Source: a virus
IMG/VR virus record: IMGVR_UViG_3300035183_001064
Span: 1 to 53,321 of that record
DNA length: 53,321 nucleotides
Strand: one strand, 5' to 3'
Of this stretch, positions 1 to 53,321 are shown piece by piece (positions within the stretch are counted from its first letter, which is position 1; every line of letters starts with the position of its first letter). Below the pieces are notes generated by a model. It was not told where the DNA came from, searched no databases, and saw nothing but the letters and a program-made list of their open reading frames with translations. A program made the position numbers and the translations under genes.

Positions 1-415
1 ACGTTGTAAGTGCGCGAAATCATTGATGTTTTGGGGTACTTGCGTCACAATTTGTTCGGAGCTACAAACATGCCCATCGCGAAAGTTAAACTTTTTGTAA
101 CTTTTTGCAAAACTTTCGCGACACACACGCGTTAGCGTGTCGTCCAGGGAAAAAAATCTGGACGTTAAGCGATACAGATAGCAGTTGTCTCTGAGCCCCA
201 ACCAGAGACAACAAGAGCGGAAAAACTCTAGGGGATGCTTGCAGCCCTGACCACAAGTACGCTCCGTAAGACGAGCCGAACGTGCACGAGCTAACGCTTG
301 CTATCGAGGAGTAGGCCAGAACCAAGCCCGCTTGGTGACACAAGTCCCCCAGGGAGGACTCATCCCGAGTCTCGCACCAAGCCGCCTTGGACACGCTAAC
401 CTGTAGCCTACTGTC
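1..415 (+). ncRNA. candidate large structured RNA, copy 1
   Basis: Non-coding leader upstream of the gene at 473, also present as a diverged copy at 51440-51842. Visible helices: 77-87 with 111-121 (11 bp), 125-130 with 135-140, 142-147 with 158-163 (10-nt loop), 184-192 with 204-212 (9 bp), and an outer helix 310-316 with 406-412 that closes a domain holding the small hairpins ACCAAG-CCCG-CTTGGT and CCAAG-CCGC-CTTGG. Between copies several stems change on both sides while loops stay conserved. Copy 1 has stop codons where copy 2 has an accidental ORF, so it is not coding. I could not assign it to a known class. The 5' end is cut by the window edge. Confidence 0.7.
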
Positions 416-472
416 CCAAAAAAGTTTGTTAATTCCATCAACAAGAAAAAAAACAACAATAGGAGGATGCCC

Positions 473-1063
473 ATGGCAGCAGCAGCAAAGAAAGGTACAC
501 AAAACATTGAGTTTGTGAAAGAGAGCGTCAAATTGACGCAAGAAGATATTAAGAAAATAAAGGGTTGGAAATGGTATGACACTGATCCCTTTGCAGGACA
601 GTGTCTGCTGACTCAATGTTCTCCAAAACTCGGTGTGCTGCTAGAGCAGCTCACCAACGCGTATCGTGCCAGTGAGCCGGTACGCGTTAGAAAAAGCCGC
701 TGGTCCGAAGAGAAAGAGGTAATAACCCCACAGGAAGCAATAAGCCGCTTTGGCGGCTTCTCGCTACGCTATAGCAAATTAACCGTCTTCCCTGGCGCGC
801 CAACGCCGGAAGCGGTTTTAAAAAGCAAAAATCCGGCGTGCCAGCACATATGGCGCGCCTTAAAAGAGCTCGAGTTTTTGCGCCCTGATTTAATCAGGGT
901 GACTAAAGGCGGCGTTGTGCGCCTTAAAGGCCACGATCCCAATTTTAACGATAAGACAAGTGTTGGTAGCCGCTCTAAGGCTGCTATAGATCCAGCAGCC
1001 TTAGACAGTGTCCTAAGTCAATATACTTTGAAAGCGGCTTCTGGAAAGGGGAAAGGCAAATGA
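473..1063 (+). CDS. hypothetical protein, family A copy 1
   Basis: A 196-residue soluble protein of unknown function, first gene after the structured RNA. The start at 473 is chosen over 467 because AGGAGG at 461-466 abuts the upstream ATG and is correctly spaced for the second; the paralog at 51899 starts at the equivalent point. The C-terminal half (from about APTPEAVLKSK on) is almost identical to the paralog at the DNA level whereas the N-terminal half is clearly diverged, which suggests gene conversion. The stop overlaps the next start (ATGA). No recognised domain. Confidence 0.8.
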   Translation: MAAAAKKGTQNIEFVKESVKLTQEDIKKIKGWKWYDTDPFAGQCLLTQCSPKLGVLLEQLTNAYRASEPVRVRKSRWSEEKEVITPQEAISRFGGFSLRYSKLTVFPGAPTPEAVLKSKNPACQHIWRALKELEFLRPDLIRVTKGGVVRLKGHDPNFNDKTSVGSRSKAAIDPAALDSVLSQYTLKAASGKGKGK

Positions 1064-1245
1064 CAATCACAACCAGAGTGCTGCACTACGCAGCAAAAGG
1101 TTGGGGCTTGCGTGAGGCTATCACGCAGGCTCAAAAAGACGCTGACGAAGATGCGCGCACAATAGCGCGCACAAAGCGACTACTGGCATGTTACAGATAC
1201 ACGTCAGTAGTGCAGAGCCGATTACGGCACCAAAGAGACGAATAA
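1060..1245 (+). CDS. small helical protein, family B copy 1
   Basis: A 61-residue charged, probably all-helical protein of unknown function, translationally coupled to the preceding gene by an ATGA overlap. It is nearly identical to the product of 52515-52703. A nested inverted repeat runs across its stop codon in both copies. Always sits between families A and C, so the three form a duplicated cassette. Confidence 0.75.
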   Translation: MTITTRVLHYAAKGWGLREAITQAQKDADEDARTIARTKRLLACYRYTSVVQSRLRHQRDE

Positions 1246-1268
1246 GCATTCGTTTTGTGTTTGGTGCC
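1226..1268 (+). other. nested stem-loop across a stop codon
   Basis: GGCACCAAA (1226-1234) pairs with TTTGGTGCC (1260-1268), enclosing ACGAAT-aagc-ATTCGT. The TAA of the upstream gene is in the structure. It is conserved exactly in the second cassette, where the intergenic DNA is otherwise free to vary, so an RNA processing or stability role is plausible but only inferred. Confidence 0.5.
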
Positions 1269-1296
1269 ATTCCGTGGCAAATCAACAATTTAACAA

Positions 1297-1326
1297 GCTC
1301 CTGCCAAAAAGGCAGGAGCAAGGAGG
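1297..1326 (+). promoter_or_regulatory. hairpin abutting Shine-Dalgarno
   Basis: Perfect 9-bp stem GCTCCTGCC-AAAAA-GGCAGGAGC followed at once by AAGGAGG and the ATG at 1332. First of a series of such hairpin-SD junctions in the early operon; the equivalent at 52755-52786 has the same stem and a longer loop. Confidence 0.65.
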
Positions 1327-1331
1327 AAAGT

Positions 1332-1745
1332 ATGTTTACAGTAAAGTTTGTGGGTTTGAACGCTAATAGCCACGTTGTGTGCATCCAGGAGCCCCCCGCG
1401 GGGCTTAGCGCCTTGGACGCAGCACGTGCCCAATTGGGTTCGGACATTCTAACGGTAGAGCCCCCTTTGGGGTTCTACAAGTATGAGGTTACTTGCTCTT
1501 TAACGGAAGAGCAAGCAAGACAAGCCCCCCATCAGTTTTCCAACCATTGGGGTGCTTGCGTTCGCGTTTTACAAGGGGCTTTCAACAATTGCGTTCTATA
1601 CGCGTGGAATCGGCTTCAGTCTGATTCTACATGCGCAATGCTAAGCTATGATGTTGATCGAGATACGATAGTGGAAGCTTGGCTAGAAGCAGGGGCACCC
1701 ACAGATTGGGTGCCCCCACAAGAGGAAACTACCGAAGCAGAATAA
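1332..1745 (+). CDS. hypothetical protein, family C copy 1
   Basis: A 137-residue protein of unknown function. The start at 1332 follows AAGGAGG by 5 nt and matches its paralogs. It shares the pattern MF(T/S)VKF...PPAGL.ALDAARA.LG near the N terminus, a (L/V)(T/S)EEQAR motif, and a C-terminal VEAWL.(A/D)GAP..W.PP motif with products at 2259, 3611 and 52792. The four paralogs lie in the same block, so the family has been amplified by local duplication. No catalytic motif is obvious; soluble, cytoplasmic by composition. Confidence 0.8.
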   Translation: MFTVKFVGLNANSHVVCIQEPPAGLSALDAARAQLGSDILTVEPPLGFYKYEVTCSLTEEQARQAPHQFSNHWGACVRVLQGAFNNCVLYAWNRLQSDSTCAMLSYDVDRDTIVEAWLEAGAPTDWVPPQEETTEAE

Positions 1746-1780
1746 GCCTAACCAGTAGCCGCGTTGTTTTGCGCAATGAA

Positions 1781-1824
1781 GGCCAATTCCGCAAGGCTCT
1801 TGCGGGGCTGGCCTTTTCTGTTTT
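1781..1824 (+). terminator. Rho-independent terminator
   Basis: A 15-bp stem with one mismatch and two G-U pairs (1781-1795 with 1799-1813), loop GCT, followed by TTTTCTGTTTT. It ends the first cassette. The same element, with a different perfectly paired stem, follows the second cassette at 53228. Confidence 0.75.
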
Positions 1825-1855
1825 GTGCAATGGAGGCCAGTTTAGCGAGGCTCTT
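1781..1855 (+). repeat. 54-bp repeat, one and a half units
   Basis: GGCCA... recurs at 1781 and 1835, spacing 54 bp, as at 53228/53282. Read in frame, a unit gives GQF(S/R)(E/K)ALA(K/G)LAFSVLCNGG, resembling the C-terminal tail GQFSEALTELRR of the next gene (1881-2210). The repeat therefore looks like a duplicated 3' gene end now acting as a terminator. Confidence 0.5.
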
Positions 1856-3156: not shown

Positions 3157-3485
3157 TTACAAAAGGCGAATTGAAAGCCGCTCTAGGGGCCGCACAATGG
3201 GCCGTCGAGCATGGGCAAGTTATGGCGTGCCCTTCTCACGACAAGGCGTGTCCCCATGGTCAGGCATGTACAACGCATATGTGCGTCATGGGCGCATTCA
3301 TGCGCGCATTATTCTCATCGTCGTCTCTTTATGGGTTTCCAACGTTTGTGGATCTGGACAGGGTTTTTACTGCTGAAGGTTTCAAGCCTGTCGCAAAAGC
3401 GGCGCCCAAAATTATGTGGCTCAATGATACAGGCCGGTTCGGCGATGCCCTTGCCGAATTGAAGGCAGCAGTAGAATGTAGCTAG
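3153..3485 (+). CDS. small His/Cys-motif protein, family D copy 2
   Basis: A 110-residue paralog of the 1881-2210 product. It keeps H-x3-C-x5-C-x2-H-x-C exactly, the following MRAL segment and the C-terminal WLND.G.F..AL.EL. Start chosen at 3153 for AGGAGG spacing and for the match with the paralog. Function unknown; a structural metal site is inferred from the invariant Cys/His. Confidence 0.75.
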   Translation: MITKGELKAALGAAQWAVEHGQVMACPSHDKACPHGQACTTHMCVMGAFMRALFSSSSLYGFPTFVDLDRVFTAEGFKPVAKAAPKIMWLNDTGRFGDALAELKAAVECS

Positions 3486-3610: not shown

Positions 3611-4033
3611 ATGTTTACGGTGAAGTTTTCTTGTGTGCAAGCCAGCAAGCATGTCATTGAAATTATCCATCCTCCGGCGGGGCTTCAGGCGCTCGATGCA
3701 GCCAGGGCTGCGCTTGGACCGGACATTGTGCGGGTAGAATACCCACAAGGGTTCTACTACTACGACGTGGTGTGTGACCTTACCGAAGCGCAAGCGCGTC
3801 TAGCGCCCCATCAATTCGCGGGCCATTGGAATGCAACCGTCAAGGTGCTCCCCGGGGCGCTCAATGGGTGCGTCATATACAAGTGGCGACGGCACCCGCG
3901 TATCGCTACTTGCGCCACGCTCGATTATGAGATCGATCGAGCCGCCGCCGTTGAGGGGTGGCTCGCTGCTGGTGCACCCTCCGAATGGATCCCACCAAAG
4001 GAGCCTGAAAAGGTGGAAGCGAAAGAGGCCTAG
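3611..4033 (+). CDS. hypothetical protein, family C member
   Basis: A 140-residue paralog of the 1332 and 52792 products with the same length and all family motifs (MFTVKF, PPAGLQALDAARAALG, LTEAQAR, VEGWLAAGAP). Function unknown. Codon use is GC-richer than the cassette copies, so it is probably the older resident of the block. Confidence 0.8.
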   Translation: MFTVKFSCVQASKHVIEIIHPPAGLQALDAARAALGPDIVRVEYPQGFYYYDVVCDLTEAQARLAPHQFAGHWNATVKVLPGALNGCVIYKWRRHPRIATCATLDYEIDRAAAVEGWLAAGAPSEWIPPKEPEKVEAKEA

Positions 4034-13097: not shown

Positions 13098-14771
13098 ATG
13101 CCTGTACATGTACCAAACGAGATACGACCATTCGCACCCGTCGTGGTTATTGGGGAATCGCCCGGAGAGTGGGAGATTATGCGAGGCGCGCCCTTCGTTG
13201 GCCCGGCGGGATCACTCCTTGAACAGTTTTACAAAAGTGCGGGGCTGACCAGGGAGGATATATCGTTTTTGAATCTTGTTCCGATGGAGCTGCATGGTTC
13301 GGCGCTGCAAGAAGCGGCCCGATCGGCGGAAATGCAAAAAGAGCTGCACCGCAGTTTACAGCGGTGCAAGGGCGCCCGTGTGATCGTGCTGTGTGGAGAT
13401 GTTCCTTTGCGGGTGCTGTTGAACATGCAGGGTCACGAAGGCATTACGGCGTGGCGGGGAACCATCTTTGCCCCCGCTTTATACAACCAGAAATTGCAGA
13501 AGTTGTGTCCCGTGCAGTCCGGCTTGCTGGCGGTGCTCCCTGTCTACCATCCGGCGTACACGCTGCGAATGCCGCGCACGGCGGCTGCGCAGTTTCGGGA
13601 CTGGTCTGTTGTGGCTCAGATTCTGAAGACGGGGCGTGCGCCAGAACCGCCACAGCGGAGGCATATTACGTATCCGTCCCGAGCAGAAGTGGAGTGGTTT
13701 ATGGATTTTGTCCGCTCGTTTCCGGTCAGTACGCCTCTAGCGTTTGATATTGAAACGATTCCTTCCCTGGGCCGCATTGTGTGCATTGGGTTTGCCGTGC
13801 GCACGACGGAATCGTTGGTGCTGGACTGGAGCGTGAAATGGCAGCGGGAGGCGGCGAGGGCCTTGTTGCAGTTGCCCAATCCTAAGCTCGGGCAGAATGG
13901 GCACTACGATTTGTTTTATTTGTATACGGATGAGCATCCTACGCCTGTACGCAATTATTGGTGGGACACGATGTATTTGCACCACCAGCTTCATACAACG
14001 GAGCCGCATTCCCTGGCGTACCTTGCGAGCATGTACACGTACACGCCGTATTACAAGCATGAGGGTCGGGCCAGTGGCCGGGGTATTGGGGACTTGAATG
14101 TGAAACTGGCGGAATATTGCGGGCTGGATTGCTGCGTGCAGGTGGAAGTGTTCAATGCGTTGCACGCGGAGCTTGTGGCGGCGGGGCCGCAAGCCCTGCG
14201 GTTTCACAAGGAGCATTATCAGGAGATGTATGCGCCCCTGTTGGATGTATCGCTTGCAGGATTGCGGGTAGACTCCGCCTTTTTGGGTAATACCGGGGCG
14301 CAAATGGAAAAATCGCTGGCGGCGCTGCGTGCGGAAATTGAAAAGGACGCGCCGGTGTTTGGCAAAAACAGCATTTCCAACGAAAAGTTGCGGACGTGGC
14401 TCTACACCACCCACGGCATGCCGAAGGAGTGGGGCAAAGAAAGCGAAAAAACGGGCGACAAGAATCTCAGTGTGAGTGAAGCCACATTGCGGCGGCATAT
14501 GCTGCGGGATACGAAGAAAGCGCAGAGGCTGGCCCCGGTGTTGGAGCGCATTTTGAAGTTTCGGGAGTTGCATACGTTGTCGCGCTTTTTCGTGAAAAAG
14601 GATCTGATTGATCCTGATGGGTACGTGCGGGCGCAATATTCGTTGAATACGGAAGCTGGACGCTGCTCATCGAAAGCAAATCCCCGTTTGCGGGGGCGCA
14701 ATTTACAAAACATTCCGCCAGAAGTCCGCCCCGGTTTTGTGCCGGATGTGGAGATTCGGCGGGGTGTGTGA
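13098..14771 (+). CDS. family A DNA polymerase, N-terminal subunit: UDG + 3'-5' exonuclease + thumb
   Basis: A 557-residue product. Residues ~12-170 are a uracil-DNA glycosylase family 4/5-like domain (GESPGEWE, GAPFVGPAGSLL, then VYHPAYTLR), as fused in SPO1-type polymerases. Residues ~210-350 are a DnaQ-like exonuclease with intact DIET, NGHYD and YCGLD motifs. The rest is the thumb region and the T-x-x-G-R...LQNIP segment. It stops just before motif A; the catalytic palm and fingers are in the gene at 15095. Both parts would need to assemble for activity. Confidence 0.85.
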   Translation: MPVHVPNEIRPFAPVVVIGESPGEWEIMRGAPFVGPAGSLLEQFYKSAGLTREDISFLNLVPMELHGSALQEAARSAEMQKELHRSLQRCKGARVIVLCGDVPLRVLLNMQGHEGITAWRGTIFAPALYNQKLQKLCPVQSGLLAVLPVYHPAYTLRMPRTAAAQFRDWSVVAQILKTGRAPEPPQRRHITYPSRAEVEWFMDFVRSFPVSTPLAFDIETIPSLGRIVCIGFAVRTTESLVLDWSVKWQREAARALLQLPNPKLGQNGHYDLFYLYTDEHPTPVRNYWWDTMYLHHQLHTTEPHSLAYLASMYTYTPYYKHEGRASGRGIGDLNVKLAEYCGLDCCVQVEVFNALHAELVAAGPQALRFHKEHYQEMYAPLLDVSLAGLRVDSAFLGNTGAQMEKSLAALRAEIEKDAPVFGKNSISNEKLRTWLYTTHGMPKEWGKESEKTGDKNLSVSEATLRRHMLRDTKKAQRLAPVLERILKFRELHTLSRFFVKKDLIDPDGYVRAQYSLNTEAGRCSSKANPRLRGRNLQNIPPEVRPGFVPDVEIRRGV

Positions 14772-14788
14772 AATGGGGGGAACAAGAG

Positions 14789-15070
14789 ATGACGGTGGAA
14801 GAAACGGCAGTGTTTTTTGGCATGTTGCACCGGGATGCCAGCGCCCCGTGGCCGTATAATTGGCGGGAAGCGCCAGTGCGCTATGTTATTCCGGAAGAGC
14901 AGGAGTATGATGGGGAGGGGCGGCCCTGTGGGCCGATGCCGCAATACCGCCTTGTTGGGTTGTGGGCGTTCGATGAGGCCACCCAAACAGTGCAGGTGGC
15001 GCTGCGTCGCGTTGGGGCCGAGCCGGAGCCTGAGCCGCACCAGCAGGAGGGTGTTGCCGTGGCGGCATAG
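14789..15070 (+). CDS. hypothetical ORF inserted between polymerase halves
   Basis: A 93-residue acidic protein (100 if the GTG at 14768, which overlaps the polymerase stop as GTGA, is used). It separates the two parts of the polymerase. The sequence has a WPYNWREAPVRYVIPEEQEY segment and a Glu/Pro-rich tail. It has no homing-endonuclease (HNH, LAGLIDADG, GIY-YIG) or intein motif. It could help the two polymerase parts assemble, or be a neutral insertion; unknown family. Confidence 0.65.
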   Translation: MTVEETAVFFGMLHRDASAPWPYNWREAPVRYVIPEEQEYDGEGRPCGPMPQYRLVGLWAFDEATQTVQVALRRVGAEPEPEPHQQEGVAVAA

Positions 15071-15094
15071 CGCCGCATGTCTGGGGGAAGGCAA

Positions 15095-15952
15095 ATGAAA
15101 ACGGTATTTCTAAATATGGACTTGAGCCAGGCAGAGCACCGGGTGGTGGCCTTGCTGAGCGGCGATGAGACGTTTATGCAGGAGGCGTTTCGCCCCCTTG
15201 AAGGCGGCATTGATACGCATAAAGAAACGGCTGCCCTGATTTTTGAGGTGCCATATGACCAGGTGAATGCGGAGCAGCGATATGTGGCGAAAAAGGTGGT
15301 CCATGGCTCTGAACGCCTGATGGGCGCACGAAAATTGGCGTCTACCATGCGGAAGGATGGATACAATATCAAGGAGCACCAGGCGCAACGGTATCTGATT
15401 CAATTGCTCAAAAAGAAACCGGGCCTTATGATGTACATTCGGCGCGTCAAGCGTGCGATTCATGAAACGCGGACCCTCACGAATCCTTTTGGGCGGCGCA
15501 TTTATTTTGAGTGGGATCGTTTGGACGATGCGCTGTATCGGAAGGCAATGAGTTTTTTGCCCCAGTCTACGGTGGCGGATATTGTGAATGTTCTGTTTTG
15601 GAAGCGCCTGTATAAGTGGTTTGCGGAGAATGGATACGGGCGCGTCAATCAGCAAGGGCATGATTCCCTGCTTATGAGCGTGCAAATCGTGCGCGTGTAC
15701 GAGACCATGCAATATATTGCGGAGGAGCTGGCTCCCGCGCAGGCAAAAATCAAGTACCGGCTGCCAGATACAGGGGAATATCTACCGCCCATGATTATTC
15801 CTGTGGAGTTTTCCGTGGGGTGCAATTGGGGAGCTTTGACCTTGAAGTATACGGCGCTGCCCACAAAAAAGCAGTGCACACAAGACTTGCGGGCGCTGCT
15901 TCAGGCGGCGCGTGGAGCTGGTGGCAAGGCACATTCATTTGGGGGCAAGTAG
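15095..15952 (+). CDS. family A DNA polymerase, C-terminal palm/fingers subunit
   Basis: A 285-residue product, start at 15095 after GGGGGAAGG. It begins just before motif A (NMDLSQAEHR, D9). Motif B around residues 63-85 (RYVAKKVVHGSERLMGARKLA without one end residue) has His where E. coli has F762 and Arg where it has Y766. Motif C is QGHDSLLMS (H189-D190). All catalytic carboxylates are present, so the split protein can be active with the product of 13098. The His at the 762 site occurs in some phage groups from memory; the Arg is unusual. Confidence 0.85.
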   Translation: MKTVFLNMDLSQAEHRVVALLSGDETFMQEAFRPLEGGIDTHKETAALIFEVPYDQVNAEQRYVAKKVVHGSERLMGARKLASTMRKDGYNIKEHQAQRYLIQLLKKKPGLMMYIRRVKRAIHETRTLTNPFGRRIYFEWDRLDDALYRKAMSFLPQSTVADIVNVLFWKRLYKWFAENGYGRVNQQGHDSLLMSVQIVRVYETMQYIAEELAPAQAKIKYRLPDTGEYLPPMIIPVEFSVGCNWGALTLKYTALPTKKQCTQDLRALLQAARGAGGKAHSFGGK

Positions 15953-19100: not shown

Positions 19101-21015
19101 GGCCAATAACACGCTGCGCCGCCTCAATCGTGACCGCGTCTTCAGGAGTAGCGCCCCGGGTGCCGGTTGGGGCCGGTGCAGTACGACCGCTGAGGCCCTG
19201 CAAGTATTCTTCTGCGGCTTTGCGCCCTTGAGATTGCAGAATAGCCTGCACGTCCCACAAGGTGTCTGCATCGTGGGCAAAGTCCGGGCTGTCCGGGTAG
19301 TATTGCCTGTAGAGATCCCGCGCGCTATTGCGGTAGGCTCGCGCAACGGCGGCGGACACGCTGCTGGGCTGCGGCTGCGCACTGGGTGGGGGCGCGCTGG
19401 GCGGCAAGTCCTTCCACTTCCTTTGGTCCTGCGCGGCGGGCTGCGGTTGACTGGTTTCCGGCGGGCGCTGCTCCAACGCGGCCTGTGGCGTCGGTTCGGC
19501 GGCCCCGGAGGCCTGGGGCGCAGCCCCGGATGGTCCCTTGCCCTGCATGGCTGCGCGCTCCTCGATATATCGCCGAAGGGCGCTGGCCTTGTCTATATCT
19601 GTCGGTGCGATGGCAGAGCCGTAGGTGCGGCTTGCTACGGCTGCCTCGTCATTAAGACTGCGCTGCTCTCTTTGTTGTTGGAGGAGCGCCTGGGTTTCCG
19701 CCTCAATGCGTTGTGCATTGGTTTGTGCTCGGGGAGCCCCAATCTTTGGATCTTGTTCCATTGTGGCTGCGCGCTCTTCAATATACTGCTGAAGGGTGCG
19801 GGCCTTGTCCATATCCGTTGATGCGATGGTAGAACCGTAGGTGCGTCTTGCGGCTGCCGCTTCGTCATTGAGACTGCGTTGCTCGCTCTGTTGCTGTAGA
19901 TGTGCTTCGTAGCCCGCCCTGGCTTCCTCTGCAATGCGTTGTGCATTGGGCTGTCCTTGGGCCCCACCCTTTTGGCCCTTGCCTGGCGTTGCTGCGAGCT
20001 CATCGATATACTGCTTAAGGGCGTAGGCCTTGCGCATATCCGTCAATGCTACGGCAGGGCCGTAGGTGTGGTTTGTTACTGCCGCCATCTCGTCATTGAG
20101 CTTGCGTTGCTCGCGCTGTTGTTGGAGGAGCGCCTGGGTTTCCGCCTCAATGCGTTGTGCATTGGTTTGTGCTCGGAACCCCCTCTGTGGCTCCTCTTCC
20201 ATCGTTGCGGCGCGCTCCTCTATATATCGCTGAAGGGCGCGGGCCTTGTCTATATTTGTCGATATGGCAGGAACGCCGTAGGTGTGCCTTGCTTCCGCGT
20301 TAGCTTCCAATTGGCGCTGTTCGCTTTGGCGTTGCAGATATTCTTCGTGGCGCGCCCTGGCCTCCTCTGCAATGCGCCGTGCATTTTCGGCATTCTCTGC
20401 ATCGATTTCCGCTTGTATTCGCGCCGATCGTTGCGCTTGCCGTTCGGCGTTGAGCGCGGCTCGCTGCGCCTCCCGCTGCGTTTTCAAGGCCTGACGCTGC
20501 TTGCCTCTCACAATATAGCCGCCGAGTCCGCCCGTAGCGGCAGAGAGCGCCACGCCAGGCCCCATGTCGGAGAGCGGTACGCCCTCACTGGCCTGGTACA
20601 AAGCGTTTTCTGCTGCCGCAGTAAGCGCGCCTTTTGCAACAGCGTACATTTTGGACGCCGCCGGTCCGGCAGGGCCAATGGTAGCGCCCCCCATCGCAAT
20701 GGCGGTGCCAAGAAGGTTTCTCTTTTCCCGCTGCTGTGTGGCAAGTTCAATTTCTTGGGCCACCTGCTCGCCAATACCAGCACCAGCAATAAGGCCGGGA
20801 ACGCCCGCAAGAACGCTACCGACCAGGGGTCCGGCCAGGCGGGCGGCTGTGGGCGACCATTTTTGCACGGTGGTAAGCCGAGGCTTCGGTGCTGGTGCGG
20901 GCGGTCCTTGCGGCTCTAGAGCGCGAAGGGTTTCAAGAATGGTTTCTTCCGTGTCATTATCGCCAAACTCGATATACGCGCCCGGCTCATAGGGGTGCTC
21001 AACGTACTTCGGCAT
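16105..21015 (-). CDS. giant internal virion / DNA-ejection protein with coiled-coil repeats
   Basis: A 1636-residue protein, by size and position equal to the large internal virion proteins of podoviruses that enter the cell with the DNA. After an N-terminal acidic stretch and two Gly/Ala hydrophobic helices (residues ~57-125), residues ~213-495 contain four ~70-residue repeats built on RI.AE..A...QQ..EQR.LN, TYG..IA.TD.DKA..L and YIEERAA. A Pro/Ala/Gln-rich linker follows, then a long alpha-helical body. No transglycosylase motif was spotted; that activity is supplied by the gene at 34644. Starts 1 nt after the stop of the previous gene. Confidence 0.75.
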   Translation of the reverse strand: MPKYVEHPYEPGAYIEFGDNDTEETILETLRALEPQGPPAPAPKPRLTTVQKWSPTAARLAGPLVGSVLAGVPGLIAGAGIGEQVAQEIELATQQREKRNLLGTAIAMGGATIGPAGPAASKMYAVAKGALTAAAENALYQASEGVPLSDMGPGVALSAATGGLGGYIVRGKQRQALKTQREAQRAALNAERQAQRSARIQAEIDAENAENARRIAEEARARHEEYLQRQSEQRQLEANAEARHTYGVPAISTNIDKARALQRYIEERAATMEEEPQRGFRAQTNAQRIEAETQALLQQQREQRKLNDEMAAVTNHTYGPAVALTDMRKAYALKQYIDELAATPGKGQKGGAQGQPNAQRIAEEARAGYEAHLQQQSEQRSLNDEAAAARRTYGSTIASTDMDKARTLQQYIEERAATMEQDPKIGAPRAQTNAQRIEAETQALLQQQREQRSLNDEAAVASRTYGSAIAPTDIDKASALRRYIEERAAMQGKGPSGAAPQASGAAEPTPQAALEQRPPETSQPQPAAQDQRKWKDLPPSAPPPSAQPQPSSVSAAVARAYRNSARDLYRQYYPDSPDFAHDADTLWDVQAILQSQGRKAAEEYLQGLSGRTAPAPTGTRGATPEDAVTIEAAQRVIGRTQETPLTATERLTMAKALGGPDAPYGLSSDPTKLTKVGDLPDEALATAFLRARRAMAPTPPQGPSTLAAERAIARASAEGPINPTTGRVQLSALPPHKPSQLLGPSEEVIPVGQALKEGPTTMALADSAAQAKDLGAPPKALLAQVPLDEYIRAERMARLNSLMSANMTRGGRAMLTRASNKAFMAHRDGVQAALEHGLPIHPDNLEIYGLTGGPANTLPSEIRDTRKLADFLAQQSVRGEKTNLVLKRVFNALQDTPLSVAKVFGDETGSTTIISDMSAYISDALTRLKGRLSPETRPFGPSGRTLAELEDRAAIAWATLRGITKVGTLPKEVVNPLVEIDMNQFLLAQKWDTALTNAAQYLTPAELSFLRHNGRGLVRGTTAIPDNMPNLRVYMGVYKDVMNDVHAMARGPGRLDTNYDPQYFTQKLTPAARQALISKNANPALREAILKASNVAEKDAWTIEQKLNDLFYDELTTRHYGPLERERQLQLPESVVVNGKRVQVLDVDGLNVPRQYVRMAARRIGAAMVGGPNTQDFFDKLHALTIDRAGANWEVASKQFKSTVQLLQGVEYDDAAARFLKKGDWFVDLLNSGLLTESAIPNALAGWVPAAALRGLSKAFGIMKDIHAARLGLLQGVRKDQIDEILQMGDKFGLWLKQGYLEGLLGPSATIPLSQRQYAKGAQTGIRAVLEAHPARQLARQSGQVVTKVTGVDAINRDINKLGAIAVNDALDEALAAAKNKQPQMLADLADFLHWSPEHVNRVLNTGLTEEDRAWAARVFISRSNAMYSLAVDTRRPMTHPALRAVFAFTSIVRSLGTLASLMAQQARRGNWKPITRLVFGLTSTMALNDYIKDTIHQRDRRDQGYMDLLAQSIFMSGLLGMQGEIAQDVMSSLKRDRTAQLGREFAIGHLPPAWSQLDRLGAILAYWAQGEYEKRNRAARRLFPVLDTLMVQLYGASPLDGPIARPPLSAPRRPALPRLQQRGLSRTLQKGLSQP

Positions 21016-25281: not shown

Positions 25282-26355
25282 TTACACCGCCCTCATGGGC
25301 ATTCTGGTGGGCGGCCTTTGTCCACGCGGAGCACCTGGTACAACAGGTCTGCGGGGCTGTCTGCCGCCCCAACCAAAGGCAGGGGGATTTCCCCCATACA
25401 TGCCGCCACCTGCACCGCCCCAACCAAACGCAGGCGGGTTGTTCGCCATGCCGCCGGAAAGGCCAATAGGAGCAAAAATGTTGCCTCTAAACACAGGGCT
25501 GTAAGGGCCGCCTGAAGGGGGGAGGGCATCGATGGTGGGCATGTTCGTGTTAAATCGCCCTCTGGGGTTCGAAGGCATCCCAGACATCGCACCACCTCCA
25601 GCGCCAGGATCGCCTTGTGCAACGCCAGGGGGGAGCGCATCAATGGTGGGCATATTCGTATTAAATCGCCCTCGCGGGTTTGATGGCATTCCAGCCGTCG
25701 CACCACCTCCAGGGTAGTTCGATGTGACGCCAGGAGGGAGGGCATCAATGGTAGGCATGTTCGTATTAAATCGACCTCGTGGATTTGGCGGCATTTCGCC
25801 CGTGGCGTTGCCTCCGGGGTAGTGCTGTATGACGCCAGAGGGAGGTGCATCGATGCCGGGCATGTTCGTGTTATACCGACCTTTGGGGTTCGCTGGCATT
25901 CCTTCCATTGCACCAGCGCCAGAGTAGCCTTGGGCGACGCCAGGAGGAAGTGCATCGATAGTGGGCATATTTGTGTTGTACCGCCCCCCTGGAAAAGGAA
26001 GCGCATCTATGGTGGGCATATTCGTGTGATATTCGACCCCAGGCCCTGTGGGGAAGCCATTTGTGTAGCCCCCTGGCTGCATTGTCACGACATCGCCGCC
26101 ACTAAAGCCCGCGCCTCTAAAACCTGAATACTGGTTATTGCCAGAAGGATTCCACTGCGTCACATCGTTATAAGCGCCCGTGTATGGGCCGGGGATTCCA
26201 TACCCGCCGAATCCACCGCCTCCACCAAAAGGAACACTGGCCTGGACCGCACCATTCAGACCGCCTGCATACCACATGGATGGACTATACCCGTAGGCGC
26301 TTTGGGCTGCGAAGGGTCCGCCGATACTCGCGGGAAAATACATTGAAGCTGCCAT
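25282..26355 (-). CDS. Gly/Pro-rich repeat virion protein
   Basis: A 357-residue low-complexity protein. Residues ~108-278 contain six to seven copies of a ~36-residue unit built on G(M/E)P.NP(R/K)GR(F/Y)NTNMP(T/G)IDALPPGV followed by a Gly-rich spacer. It has no Cys, few charges and no predicted helices, so it is probably extended or disordered. It is coupled to the upstream gene (TGATG). Role unknown; a structural strand or adhesive virion component is possible. Confidence 0.7.
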   Translation of the reverse strand: MAASMYFPASIGGPFAAQSAYGYSPSMWYAGGLNGAVQASVPFGGGGGFGGYGIPGPYTGAYNDVTQWNPSGNNQYSGFRGAGFSGGDVVTMQPGGYTNGFPTGPGVEYHTNMPTIDALPFPGGRYNTNMPTIDALPPGVAQGYSGAGAMEGMPANPKGRYNTNMPGIDAPPSGVIQHYPGGNATGEMPPNPRGRFNTNMPTIDALPPGVTSNYPGGGATAGMPSNPRGRFNTNMPTIDALPPGVAQGDPGAGGGAMSGMPSNPRGRFNTNMPTIDALPPSGGPYSPVFRGNIFAPIGLSGGMANNPPAFGWGGAGGGMYGGNPPAFGWGGRQPRRPVVPGAPRGQRPPTRMPMRAV

Positions 26356-45166: not shown

Positions 45167-45198
45167 AGCCTGCGGGGGCGCCTCCTCTCCCGCAGGCT
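45167..45198 (+). other. 10-bp hairpin 30 nt after the + promoter
   Basis: AGCCTGCGGG pairs with CCCGCAGGCT, 12-nt loop. On the + transcript it would be a 5' stem; on the - strand it is followed by GGGGAAGGAGG but no start codon. Confidence 0.5.
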
Positions 45199-45224
45199 CC
45201 CGTCCACTGCCCACACTACCCCCG

Positions 45225-45342
45225 CCACCCACACCAACCACACCAACCACACCATCCACACCAACCACACCAACCACACCAACCACACCACCCACAACAC
45301 CCACACCATCCACACCACTCACGCCACCCACGCCACCGTGCA
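45225..45342. repeat. 9-bp tandem repeat tract
   Basis: Roughly twelve imperfect copies of CCACACCAA. The length being a multiple of three leaves several frames open, giving artefact ORFs of repeated dipeptides or tripeptides. Stretch 45199-45396 has no credible gene. At 45355-45402 a partial relative of the leader elements (- strand AGAAAGCC...GTGGGGAAGCCAC) follows the gene 45397-45642. Confidence 0.65.
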
Positions 45343-45396
45343 AGGCAGTAAACTTTGCAAAGACCGCTGTGGCTTCCCCACGCTGAATGAGGCTTT

Positions 45397-48399: not shown

Positions 48400-49692
48400 T
48401 CAGACGTGGCATTGAGCCGCCCCCTGAGTCGCTTCGACGGGTTCCTGCTTCCGACCGCCAACGCGGTTCGATCCACAGGCCATCTGGGCTGACACAGGCA
48501 GACCACCTGCCAGCATCCCAACCGAAGCGTCGGTTGTGTCCCGCCCTTCGTCTCGCCATATTTGCATCCCGCGAGAAAGGATGTTGATTGCGCCGACCAC
48601 ATCGGCGTTGTCCTCGAACCCACATGCCACGCACACGAACCTGGCTTGCGTTCGGCGGTTGTCCGCCGAAATATGACCGCAGCACGGGCAGGTGCGGCTG
48701 GTGTTGTGAGGCGGCACCACAATGAGATGGCCGCCTTTCCACGCCAGCTTGTACGCCAGTTGGCAGCGAAACTCGTACCAGCCTTGATCAAGGATAGACT
48801 TGTTCAGGCCGGACTTGGCCCGAACGTTGCTTCCCGGCGCATCTACTGTACCTGCCGCCGACCGGGACATATTCCGCACTCGCAAGTCCTCGATGCAAAC
48901 GATCGCGTGGTTTTTGCTGATCGCGGTCGAGGTCTTGTGCAGAAAGTCGCGGCGGACATTGGCAATGCGGGAATGAATGCGCTGGACGCGGGCTTTCGCC
49001 TTCTTCCAGTTGTTACTGAGCTTGACTTTGCGGCTCATGGCCTGCTGAGCTTTGCGCAAGGCCACCTCATGCCGCTTGAAGCTGTTGATGGGGGCGTAGA
49101 ACGCGCCGTCCGAGAGCGTCGCGAACCGGGCAATGCCCATATCAATACCCACTGCCCCACCCTTCGGGATCGGCTGAGCAACCTCTCGTTTGGTCTGAAT
49201 GGCAACAAACCACTTGCCACCGCTCAGGCTGACGGTGACGTTGCGCAGATCGCCCAGCACTTTGCGGCTGTTGCGATAGCGCAGCCAACCAAGCTTCGGC
49301 AGAAAAATGCGGTTGTTGGCCTGATCGAGCTTGATTGCCTTCGGGTTTGGATAACGGAAGCTGTCCGACCGGCCCTTCTTCTTGAAACGCGGAAAGCCAG
49401 CACGTTTGGAGAAGAAGTTGGTGTAGGCCCGCTCCAAATCTCTGAGCGCCTGTTGCTGCGAATGAGCGGGAGCATCGGCCAGCCAAACCGTTTCCACGCT
49501 ATTGCGCCACCCAGTAAGCAGCTTGCACAGCCCGGCATAACCCAGTTTCTTCTCGCCTTGCTCGTAGCGATCCTTCTGCAACGCCAACGCCTTGTTGTAG
49601 ACAAACCGACACGAGCCAGCGAAGCGGTGCATCTGCCGCTCCTGCTGGCCGTTTGGCATGAGTTTGAATCTAAAGGCCTGGAACCGCTGCAT
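48400..49692 (-). CDS. tnpB: TnpB RNA-guided nuclease
   Basis: A 430-residue TnpB, the ancestor-type relative of Cas12. RuvC I D184 (GIDMGIARFATLSDG), RuvC II E268 (VCIEDLRVRNM), zinc ribbon C335-x2-C338...C354-x2-C357, RuvC III D364 (NADVVGAINIL): all intact. It uses an omega-RNA from the 3' end of its own gene and right end, and cuts target DNA next to a short motif. Start ATG lies 6 nt after a TATAAT box. The C terminus after residue ~385 is loosely conserved and overlaps the omega-RNA region. Confidence 0.9.
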   Translation of the reverse strand: MQRFQAFRFKLMPNGQQERQMHRFAGSCRFVYNKALALQKDRYEQGEKKLGYAGLCKLLTGWRNSVETVWLADAPAHSQQQALRDLERAYTNFFSKRAGFPRFKKKGRSDSFRYPNPKAIKLDQANNRIFLPKLGWLRYRNSRKVLGDLRNVTVSLSGGKWFVAIQTKREVAQPIPKGGAVGIDMGIARFATLSDGAFYAPINSFKRHEVALRKAQQAMSRKVKLSNNWKKAKARVQRIHSRIANVRRDFLHKTSTAISKNHAIVCIEDLRVRNMSRSAAGTVDAPGSNVRAKSGLNKSILDQGWYEFRCQLAYKLAWKGGHLIVVPPHNTSRTCPCCGHISADNRRTQARFVCVACGFEDNADVVGAINILSRGMQIWRDEGRDTTDASVGMLAGGLPVSAQMACGSNRVGGRKQEPVEATQGAAQCHV

Positions 49693-49897
49693 GGCTCAAT
49701 TATACTTCTGGTCTACGGGCAATGACAAGGATATTCGACATGGACGGCACTGCGTTTTCAGGATGCACGTCCATTTGGTCTTCGTGACAAAATACCGCCG
49801 TGACGTGTTCGATGGCGTCGCCATCGAACGGCTGCGCGTGATCTTCGCCAAGGTCTGCGCCGGCTTTGAACCGCCTCTGGAACGCCAGGTTGCATAG
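49691..49897 (+). pseudogene. tnpA: truncated tnpA (Y1 transposase)
   Basis: Only the N-terminal ~55 residues of TnpA remain (DIRHGRHCVFRMHVHLVFVT, KYRRDVFDG, IFAKVCAGFE), ending in LERQVA and a stop. The HUH region and the catalytic Tyr are gone; the usual length is ~135-150 residues. A deletion joins the fragment to the element's left end. Confidence 0.85.
49699..49728 (-). promoter_or_regulatory. tnpB promoter
   Basis: TTGTCA - 18 nt - TATAAT; ATG begins 6 nt after the -10, so the tnpB message is probably leaderless. It lies inside the tnpA reading frame. Confidence 0.6.
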
Positions 49898-49918
49898 TAC
49901 AGGGACAAGCCCCGGACT

Positions 49919-50350
49919 TCAGGCCGGAGTAGTTGATGCCGTCGCGCTCCCTTTTTTGCGTTCGCTCTTTTTGCCCGCCTCAAAGGTGTGAATAAACCGC
50001 CGGGCCAGGATCGTCGCGGCATATTCCTCCGCAAAATGGTCGTCCGCCCGCCAATGGTGCATCGCCTCCAGAATGGGATGCTGTAGCTCGTGGACAATCG
50101 TTAGCTCCAGGTCCGCATCCGTGCGCTTCGCGGTCACCTCACAGTTGATGACGATGTGCGCGTACTGGTACATCGCGCTGGATGTAATCTCCATCTCCAC
50201 CAGCTCGTTGGGATTTTCCGTAGGTTCCCACGCGGTGTCCGTGTACGTAAACGTAAAGTCCCAGCCGGACCAGTACCCCATGCGGTCTATCCACCGGCGG
50301 AACAAGCGCCGGACACGCGCTTTTTCCTGCGCAAACTCCTTTTTTGTCAC
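49919..50350 (-). CDS. zincin-like metallopeptidase-fold protein
   Basis: A 143-residue protein with the HELQH zinc motif (LTIVHELQHPILEAM, then EEYAATILARRF), a minimal HExxH zincin. N-terminal part is basic-helical then DFTFTYTDTAWEPT. GTG 50350 overlaps the previous stop (GTGA) with GGGAGGA upstream. The stop codon (TGA at 49919-49921) comes from the IS end, so the native C terminus was probably changed by the insertion. Could process or bind a phage or host protein; substrate unknown. Confidence 0.65.
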   Translation of the reverse strand: MTKKEFAQEKARVRRLFRRWIDRMGYWSGWDFTFTYTDTAWEPTENPNELVEMEITSSAMYQYAHIVINCEVTAKRTDADLELTIVHELQHPILEAMHHWRADDHFAEEYAATILARRFIHTFEAGKKSERKKGSATASTTPA

Positions 50351-50759: not shown

Positions 50760-51079
50760 CGCCGCCGTCTACGGCGCGTGCATCGGCGGGGTGCGAGGCA
50801 TTTCGTGATGATCATATGGCGCATGGCATGGCGCGCGGTGCGCGGTGCGCGGCATGCGGCGTGGTGCGGTGCATGGCGTGCGGGGCAGGGCAGGGCAGGG
50901 ATTATCGGCTTGATTTTGTTGAAATACCTGTGGCCGTTTGGAGGGGGGATCTTTTGTGCGACCCCTCCCGCGCCGGAGTCCTCCCGGAACGGATCCCGCT
51001 CCGCCCCCGGGTTGGGGCCCCCCTACAAATCTCACTCACAGTGAGTGAGAAATGGGCGGAGGACGCGGCTCACGGAACC
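50760..51079. other. gene-free region between divergent transcripts
   Basis: No credible gene. Contains CATGGCGC/GGTGCGC-type short repeats (50815-50900), GGAGGGG pairing with CCCCTCC around an AT-rich loop (50939-50967), and one isolated copy of the palindrome (51029-51051, CTCACTCACAGTGAGTGAG). Origin or control region by position. Confidence 0.5.
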
Positions 51080-51308
51080 ATCCCCTACAATGGGCGAGAC
51101 ATTCCCCATAACAGGCGATACATCACTCACAGGGTGTGAGATATCACTAACAGGGTGTGAGATATCACTCACAGGGTGTGCAATATCACTCGCAGTGAGT
51201 GAGCTATCACACACAGTGTGTGGAATATCACTCACAGTGTGCATAGTATCACTGCCAGTGTGGGAGCATCACTCACCGTGAATAGCCATCACGCACAGTG
51301 TGTGAGGC
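51080..51308. repeat. array of 21-bp palindromic iterons
   Basis: Eleven units at 21-bp (two at 20-bp) spacing, starting at 51080, 51101, 51122, 51143, 51164, 51185, 51206, 51227, 51248, 51268 and 51288. Consensus ATCACTCACAGTGTGTGAGAT, each unit itself an imperfect palindrome; the first two are degenerate. Two-helical-turn phasing suits an oligomerising DNA-binding protein. No spacers, so not a CRISPR. Same site in the coat promoter at 38481. Confidence 0.8.
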
Positions 51309-51425: not shown

Positions 51426-51441
51426 GTGTTTTTGTAAACAC
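51426..51441. promoter_or_regulatory. inverted repeat before RNA copy 2
   Basis: GTGTTT-TTGT-AAACAC lies exactly at the left edge of the duplicated cassette. Possibly an operator or promoter part; no clear -35/-10 pair recognised here. Confidence 0.4.
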
Positions 51442-51842
51442 GTTGTAAGTGCGCGAAATCATTGATGTTTTGGGGTACTTGCGTCACAATTTGTTCGGAG
51501 CTACAAACATGCCCATCGCGAAAGTTAAACTTTTTGTAACTTTTTGCAAAACTTTCGCGACACACAAACGTGTCGCCCGGGGAAAGAAATCCGGGCGTAA
51601 AGCGATACAACCAGTAGCTGCTGCTAAGCCCCAAACTGGCAGCAGCAAAGGCGGAAGAACCCTAAGGGATATTATCCCTGACCATAAGTAAGCCCCGTAA
51701 GACGGGCTGAACGTGTACGGGCTAACGTCTACTGGTGAGGCGTGGGCCAGAACCAAGCCCGCTTGGTGACACAAGTCCCCCAGGGAGGACTCATCCCGAG
51801 TCTCGCACCAAGCCGCCTTGGATGTGAACCTGTAGCCCACTA
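51440..51842 (+). ncRNA. candidate large structured RNA, copy 2
   Basis: Diverged copy of 1-415. The first 127 nt are identical. After that, helices are kept by paired changes: 51575-51580/51591-51596 is GCCCGG/CCGGGC versus GTCCAG/CTGGAC in copy 1 with the same 10-nt loop; 51617-51624/51639-51646 is GCTGCTGC/GCAGCAGC versus GTTGTCTCT/AGAGACAAC around a conserved AGCCCCAA loop; the outer helix 51742-51747/51835-51840 is GTGGGC/GCCCAC versus AGTAGGC/GCCTACT. The GG(C/A)CAGAACC...CCTTGGA block is nearly invariant. Confidence 0.7.
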
Positions 51843-51898: not shown

Positions 51899-52486
51899 AT
51901 GGCAGCAAAAAAAGCCAAAGAAGGCTTCTGCATCTCTTTCGTTAGCGAGAAAGTCTCGCTAACAGCAGCAGAAATCGACAGGATCAAAGCTTGGAAATGG
52001 TACGACAATGATCCGTACCATGGCCAATGCTTATTGTCTCAATGTACGCCGCATTTAGGCGTACTGCTGGAGCAAATTACAAACGCTTATCGTGCCAGTG
52101 AGCCGATAAGTGTTAAAAGGGATAGATGGGGTTCCGAGAAGGAGATTATTACTCCGTCCGAAGCAATAAACCGCTTCGGCGGATTTTCCCTAAGGTACAG
52201 CAGATTAACTTCGCTTCCAGGTTCGCCAACGCCGGAAGCGGTTTTAAAAAGCAAAAATCCGGCGTGCCAGCACATATGGCGCGCCTTAAAAGAGCTCGAG
52301 TTTTTGCGCCCTGATTTAATCAGAGTGACTAAAGGCGGCGTTGTGCGCCTTAAAGGCCACGATCCCAATTTTGGCACTAAAACAAGTGTTGGTAGCCGCT
52401 CTAAGGCTGCTATAGATCCAGCAGCCTTAGACAGTATACTTTCGCAGTATACGCGGGGAGCCGCTTCAGGGAAGCGGAACCGCTAG
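51899..52486 (+). CDS. hypothetical protein, family A copy 2
   Basis: A 195-residue paralog of the 473-1063 product. ATG 51899 with AGGAGG 5 nt upstream fixes the start. From ~52225 to ~52440 the DNA is almost identical to copy 1; upstream of that identity falls sharply, as with gene conversion. Unknown function. Confidence 0.8.
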   Translation: MAAKKAKEGFCISFVSEKVSLTAAEIDRIKAWKWYDNDPYHGQCLLSQCTPHLGVLLEQITNAYRASEPISVKRDRWGSEKEIITPSEAINRFGGFSLRYSRLTSLPGSPTPEAVLKSKNPACQHIWRALKELEFLRPDLIRVTKGGVVRLKGHDPNFGTKTSVGSRSKAAIDPAALDSILSQYTRGAASGKRNR

Positions 52487-52514: not shown

Positions 52515-52703
52515 ATGATGACGCTCACGGCAAGAGTTTTACACTATGCTGCGAAGGGGTGGGGCTTGCGTGAGGCTATCACGCAGGCTCAAAAAGATGC
52601 TGACGAAGATGCGCGCACGATAGCGCGCACAAAGCGACTACTGGCATGTTACAAATACACGCCAGTAGTGCAGAGCCGATTACGGCACCAAAGAGACGAA
52701 TAA
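52515..52703 (+). CDS. small helical protein, family B copy 2
   Basis: A 62-residue (61 from the second ATG) near-identical copy of the 1060-1245 product, GGGGGGAGG upstream. Here it is separated from family A by 28 nt instead of overlapping. The nested hairpin over its stop is unchanged. Confidence 0.75.
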   Translation: MMTLTARVLHYAAKGWGLREAITQAQKDADEDARTIARTKRLLACYKYTPVVQSRLRHQRDE

Positions 52704-52754
52704 GCATTCGTTTTGTGTTTGGTGCCATTCCGTGGCAAGTCAACAATTTAACAA

Positions 52755-52786
52755 GCTCCTGCCGGAAAAAGGCAGGAGCAAGGAGG
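52755..52786 (+). promoter_or_regulatory. hairpin abutting Shine-Dalgarno
   Basis: GCTCCTGCC-GGAAAAA-GGCAGGAGC then AAGGAGG, matching the junction at 1297-1326 with a changed loop. Confidence 0.65.
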
Positions 52787-52791
52787 AAGGT

Positions 52792-53205
52792 ATGTTTTCC
52801 GTAAAGTTTACGTGTGTCCAAGCAAATCACCACATTATTTGTATCGAGGAACCCCCAGCGGGGCTTAGCGCCTTGGATGCAGCTAGAGCCCAATTGGGTT
52901 CGGACATTCGGACTGTAGCGCCTCCTTTGGGGTTCTACAAGTATGAGATTGCTTGCTCTTTAACGGAAGAGCAAGCAAGACGGGCAACAAACCAATTTGG
53001 CAAGCAATGGAGTACTTGCGTTCGCGTTCTGCGTGGGGCTTTTAACAATTGCGTCATTCATACGTGGAATAGACTTCAGTCTAATCCCACGTGTGCAACG
53101 CTAGACTATAATATTGATCGAGATACAATTGTGGAAGCCTGGCTAGATGCCGGGGCTCCCAATTTGTGGGTTCCTCCACAAGAGGAACCCACGGAAGCGG
53201 AATAG
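52792..53205 (+). CDS. hypothetical protein, family C copy 2
   Basis: A 137-residue protein, same length as and closely similar to the 1332-1745 product, with scattered substitutions throughout. All family motifs are present. Unknown function. Confidence 0.8.
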   Translation: MFSVKFTCVQANHHIICIEEPPAGLSALDAARAQLGSDIRTVAPPLGFYKYEIACSLTEEQARRATNQFGKQWSTCVRVLRGAFNNCVIHTWNRLQSNPTCATLDYNIDRDTIVEAWLDAGAPNLWVPPQEEPTEAE

Positions 53206-53227
53206 GGTATAGGCAGCCTACGATGAA

Positions 53228-53321
53228 GGCCAGTTTAGCGAGGCTCTTGCGAAACTGGCCTTTTCTGTTTTGTGCAATGGAGGCCAGTTTAGCGAGGCTC
53301 TTGCGAAACTGGCCTTTTCTG
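53228..53321 (+). terminator. tandem terminators in 54-bp repeats at window edge
   Basis: GGCCAGTTT pairs with AAACTGGCC (53228-53236 with 53252-53260), then TTTTCTGTTT; the same unit restarts at 53282 and is cut by the window end. Read in frame the unit is GQFSEALAKLAFSVLCNG, as at 1781. Confidence 0.7.

Follow-up and report, generated by a model that had tools for sequence, protein, structure and literature searches.

Does the stretch of about 400 nt found near both ends of this phage record specify a functional RNA, and what might such an RNA do? The window analysed (53,321 bp) was a whole IMG/VR record and is classed as linear. Its gene content (large terminase subunit, head-tail connector, split DNA polymerase A, DnaB-like ATPase and Sak4-like protein) was that of an uncultured, tailed, podovirus-like phage. 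Rightward genes occupy the part between base 1 and about 16 kb; from there to about 50.7 kb the genes point leftward. The GC skew turns at about 50 kb. The best relative (L012, record G001), with a terminase 94% identical in protein and DNA about 83-84% identical, covers only 15.8-48.1 kb of the window and ends short of the RNA on either side; no close relatives spanning the record ends were found.

A sequence-only reading had placed two copies of a structured RNA at 1-415 and 51440-51842, and these coordinates were borne out by alignment. The copies have diverged by about 22%. Identity from base 1 extends over exactly 127 nt, and this block, being 100% identical, is uninformative on structure. 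The covarying core lies at about 137-412 in copy 1 and is about 275-300 nt long. The elements of the RNA are as follows.

1..127, + strand: identical block, copy 1; exact 127-nt match from the record start to 51440-51566
137..412, + strand: covarying RNA core, copy 1, from helix covariation
51570..51841, + strand: covarying RNA core, copy 2, from helix covariation
141-148/157-164 (copy 2 51574-51581/51590-51597), + strand: helix 1, hairpin; 2 double changes
177-182/300-305 (copy 2 51610-51615/51731-51736), + strand: helix 2, closing the junction domain; 4 double changes
184-193/203-212 (copy 2 51617-51626/51637-51646), + strand: helix 3; 5 double changes, 1 G-U
215-219/295-299 (copy 2 51649-51653/51726-51730), + strand: helix 4, arm; 1 double change
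226-228/288-290 (copy 2 51660-51662/51719-51721), + strand: helix 5, continuation of the arm; 1 double change
231-234/245-248 (copy 2 51665-51668/51676-51679), + strand: helix 6, small hairpin on the arm
261-264+266-267/271-276 (copy 2 51692-51698/51702-51707), + strand: helix 7, small hairpin on the arm; 1 double change in 261-264/273-276
310-316/406-412 (copy 2 51741-51747/51835-51841), + strand: helix 8, closing the 3' domain; 1 double change
314..391, + strand: 3' domain interior, 78 nt identical in both copies; fold only predicted

Compensatory changes were counted on a nested structure of 49 pairs in eight helices. Both sides had changed with pairing kept in 15 of the 49 pairs, one side had changed in 4, and 1 pair was broken; these figures rest on two sequences, too few for R-scape power. 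Column shuffles gave a mean of 7.5 +/- 2.0 compensated pairs and never reached 15 (0/500), and sliding the partners by 1-3 columns left 0-1. Since the nested structure was partly chosen from the same two sequences, stronger evidence comes from an unbiased enumeration of helices and from natural controls. All helices possible in both copies at aligned positions were enumerated with no fold assumed and compared with 1000 column shuffles in which conserved and variable columns were kept apart. The two best helices were 184-193/203-212, with 5 double changes against a shuffle maximum of 4, and 177-184/298-305, with 4; two helices had at least 3 double changes, against a shuffle maximum of one. Among 81 control windows of 305 nt, taken from the phage and its relative of about 84% identity, the best helix never had more than 2 double changes, and genes A and C of the same module, used as controls, gave best helices with 2 and 1. 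All four one-sided changes go to or from G-U on the + strand and would be A-C on the other. Folding energy z-scores were -6.7 and -6.1 for the two copies in sense, and -6.7 sense versus -4.8 antisense. An RNA on the antisense strand was rejected on the G-U direction and the folding energy. These results demonstrate an evolutionarily conserved multi-helix RNA fold on the + strand.

The three helices named in the sequence-only reading proved real (141-148/157-164, 184-193/203-212 and 310-316/406-412, with 2, 5 and 1 double changes), and 177-182/300-305, the strongest long-range helix, 215-219/295-299, 226-228/288-290 and 261-264/273-276 were found in addition. Support for structure applies to the core at about 137-412 and not to the identical block 1-127.

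The junction domain closed by helix 2 contains the hairpin of helix 3, whose loop AGCCCCAA is kept in both copies, and the arm that begins with helix 4. Unpaired motifs common to both copies are CGGAARAAC, CCGUAAGACG, GAACGU, CUAACG and AACCUGUAGCC. The segment GCUC/GCCC at 261-264 has two possible partners, 273-276 or 288-291, with equal covariation for each, so that a structural switch is possible at this point. UUGGGG at 31-36 could pair with CCCCAA at 196-201 in a loop; both are invariant and thus carry no covariation information. The outermost pair of helix 8, 310/412, is broken in copy 2. Since 314-391 is identical in both copies, its fold is predicted only, either as a long imperfect arm or as two small CCAAG/CUUGG hairpins. 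The block 1-127 has a stable predicted hairpin at 77-121 and an AT-rich stretch with a long inverted repeat. It may be the upstream part of a leader, possibly with a promoter inside; promoter prediction gave no usable or confident call in or near it.

Could the region instead be a leader ORF or other coding stretch? An ORF with a GGAG site does begin in both copies, at 70 (21 aa) and 51509 (60 aa). However, the copy 1 ORF is interrupted by in-frame TAG and TAA codons at points where the copy 2 frame stays open, and also by a 1-nt frameshift. The differences between the copies fall evenly on the codon positions (4, 6, 6), unlike those of gene A (40, 35, 73), a pattern that shows gene A to be under selection. 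Coding also fails to account for the helix covariation. This explanation, already largely refuted, was rejected on these grounds and is scarcely credible. The view that the locus holds a functional structured RNA rather than a gene is therefore well supported by covariation and the lack of a conserved reading frame.

The repeat unit proved to be larger than the RNA. It is a 1.85-kb module comprising the RNA, genes A, B and C and a terminator hairpin, and its copies sit exactly at both ends of the 53,321-bp record. The other features of the module and its surroundings are:

462..1063, + strand: Shine-Dalgarno AGGAGG and gene A, copy 1 (196 aa, ATG at 473)
51899..52486, + strand: gene A, copy 2 (195 aa, 76% identical)
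1060..1745, + strand: genes B (1060-1245, 61 aa) and C (1332-1745, 137 aa), copy 1
52518..53205, + strand: genes B and C, copy 2 (C at 52792-53205)
1776..1825, + strand: intrinsic-terminator-like hairpin, copy 1 (-26.9 kcal/mol, then TTTTCTGTTTT), ending the module
53223..53272, + strand: intrinsic-terminator-like hairpin, copy 2 (-24.7 kcal/mol), repeated at 53274-53321, the record end
51122..51306, no strand assigned: palindromic array of about nine 21-bp repeats, ATCACTCACAGTGTGTGAGAT-like

The RNA had been called duplicated; a repeat is present, and its unit is the whole module, with duplication unproven. JGI's usual metaSPAdes setting goes up to a k-mer of 127, and when a contig starts at a branch in the assembly graph, its first bases are exactly the shared k-mer. 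We therefore take the block 1-127 to be best read as an assembly branch point and not as a sign of constraint, and the copies may be alleles rather than paralogues. Two readings are about equally probable: one locus of an unclosed circular map, present as two alleles in a mixed population, or a genuine tandem duplication that the assembler broke apart. The latter stays viable because gene C has paralogues at 2259-2699 and 3611-4033, forming a family of four with 1332-1745 and 52792-53205, which shows that the region duplicates genes. The covariation argument is valid in either case. Apparent duplications at the ends of metagenomic contigs should be treated with caution, as they can be alleles of one locus.

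What, then, is the RNA for? The putative transcription unit opens the rightward gene arm and comprises, in order, leader, gene A, gene B, gene C and terminator. In both copies the RNA lies directly upstream of the ribosome-binding site of gene A in the same sense, with AGGAGG about 50 nt past the last helix. No intrinsic terminator was predicted on the + strand between the last helix (412) and the ATG at 473; each copy of the module has a strong one (about -25 kcal/mol, then TTTTCTGTTTT) after gene C. The arrangement expected in general of a cis-acting 5' leader, in sense, directly upstream of an ORF and with no terminator between, is thus present. These facts make a cis-acting 5' leader of the A-B-C unit, about 300-400 nt on the + strand and new to Rfam, the most economical reading, and about half of our confidence goes to it. 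Transcription would begin within 1-60 or further upstream, with the leader folding as it leaves the polymerase. The unpaired motifs (the loop AGCCCCAA, CGGAARAAC, CCGUAAGACG, GAACGU and CUAACG) might then bind a factor, which could be RNA polymerase, a protein from the phage or the ribosome, or a ligand. Such binding could set A-B-C output either during transcription, through antitermination of the HK022 put type, or at the level of translation. A weakness of the leader reading is that the module was copied as a unit: finding the RNA beside gene A twice counts as one observation and gives no independent support. No sequestration of the ribosome site and no terminator/antiterminator switch was evident in the sequence, and the searches turned up no homologue beyond this record that would show whether the RNA always precedes gene A.

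The size, elaborate fold and conserved large loops would also suit a free-standing, trans-acting noncoding RNA of the GOLLD/ROOL kind, released by processing or factor-dependent termination; large phage RNAs offer a precedent (PMC12286853), and helices are conserved between the copies as strictly as in a folded RNA machine. But Rfam yielded no match for the RNA, whether to GOLLD, ROOL, OLE or another family, the record has no tRNA island, and the RNA continues into the ribosome-binding site and gene A with no intrinsic terminator after it. A free-standing RNA of about 400 nt is not favoured for this last reason, and we regard it as unlikely. A tentative and somewhat unlikely proposal is a new large phage RNA class, absent from Rfam and the searched collections, whose conserved core would play an active part beyond that of a leader, by modifying RNA polymerase, sequestering a protein or catalysing a reaction, and which would possibly occur twice per genome, each copy heading its own transcription unit.

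The surroundings of copy 2 raise the question of replication. The palindromic array lies 130-320 bp upstream of copy 2 in a divergent intergenic region (51028-51306), beside the GC-skew turn near 50 kb, and its repeats are candidate origin iterons or a candidate operator array. Together with the AT-rich inverted repeat of 1-127, this would fit an origin-proximal transcript, either a primer or the leader of a replication initiator. However, the 21-bp repeats could equally be repressor operators, and gene A has no recognisable similarity to replication initiators; the winged-helix look of its C-terminus comes from a low-confidence structure model (pLDDT 55; Foldseek E>=0.13), too poor for a structure-based reading of the gene. 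A replication role is thus quite improbable. A ribozyme or mobile intron-like element would be consistent with the multi-helix core, its conserved single-stranded motifs and the repetition of the module. Yet the Rfam models of group I/II introns, RNase P and self-cleaving ribozymes gave no match, and neither a flanking exon nor an adjoining homing endonuclease was present, which makes such an element very unlikely.

Known families were sought in several collections. No Rfam family reached the gathering score anywhere in the window, and permissive filters gave only chance matches at E>3, none of them to group I/II introns, RNase P or small self-cleaving ribozymes, which were rejected within the reach of the Rfam models. 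This agrees with the earlier failure to match the RNA to GOLLD or ROOL, and the Rfam check proposed at that time returned no known class such as an intron or RNase P. A covariance model of the core, also proposed then for phage metagenomes, was run on the window and relatives and found the two known copies only. Four RNA signature patterns searched in IMG/VR gave no match or seven unrelated chance matches, and one pattern gave none in 85k GTDB genomes; blastn of the RNA against phages and plasmids gave only 22-nt chance matches. Gene A, which belongs to no known family, had no match in the 85k GTDB genomes and no homologue in phages and plasmids, and neither gene A nor gene C had one in IMG/VR. 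Gene C gave only weak partial matches in phages, to Pseudomonas jumbo phages (E 0.05, 50% coverage). These scans detect exact short matches or close protein relatives and may omit near-window records, so that a diverged family could have escaped them.

That phages carry large RNAs whose function is unknown is well documented (PMC12286853). GOLLD is likewise large and ornate, but it exceeds 800 nt in many members and often lies near tRNA islands (PMC12286853); here the core is about 275 nt and the record has no tRNA genes. ROOL, also a large multi-helix phage RNA, is often found near tRNA islands as well (PMC12286853), whereas the present RNA abuts a ribosome-binding site. Neither gave an Rfam covariance-model match, and both identities were excluded as far as Rfam models detect. 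The manA and wcaG motifs of cyanophages are structured RNAs that came to light through comparative genomics and occur in some phages (PMC2864571); they resemble our RNA in these respects but are tied to metabolic genes, and its sequence and fold differ from theirs (no Rfam match). In HK022, the put RNAs are cis-acting folded nascent transcripts of early operons that need no dedicated protein (PMC9378689). Like putL and putR, the present RNA is folded, near an operon start and possibly present twice per genome. It differs from put in having at least eight helices over a core of about 275-300 nt instead of two stem-loops in about 70 nt near an early promoter, and so is not a put RNA by definition; by analogy, it might work like one, put acting through the zinc-binding domain of RNA polymerase beta' to suppress terminators further along the transcript.

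Large phage RNAs with comparable conserved structure are rare and mostly without known function. With two copies about 22% diverged and 15 compensated pairs, a testable secondary structure is already available, and the defined unit of about 1.8 kb (leader, three small genes and terminator) is convenient for in vitro transcription, reporter and antitermination assays.

Several further features of the record were observed. A second small gene family (1881, 3153) and the gene C family lie in a repeated arrangement, and no known homologues of either family were found. The terminator hairpin sequence (1773-1855, 53220-53321) resembles the 3' coding end of these small genes (2149-2186, 3424-3461), as though a decaying gene had left its end behind as the terminator. 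Two frames make up DNA polymerase A: 13098-14771, with a uracil-DNA-glycosylase-like domain at its N-terminus, and 15077-15952; their PHROG coordinates are contiguous, and the gap of about 300 nt holds a 100-aa ORF, as in a split gene or an insertion. No Rfam intron matched in this region (13098-15952). Tandem repeats with periods of 216, 105 and 9 nt occur in structural or unknown genes at 19531-20385, 25487-26017 and 45193-45345. An IS605-type tnpB adjoins an apparently broken, IS200-like tnpA within 48400-50097, and its identity of 69-79% to proteobacterial plasmid copies hints at a proteobacterial host.
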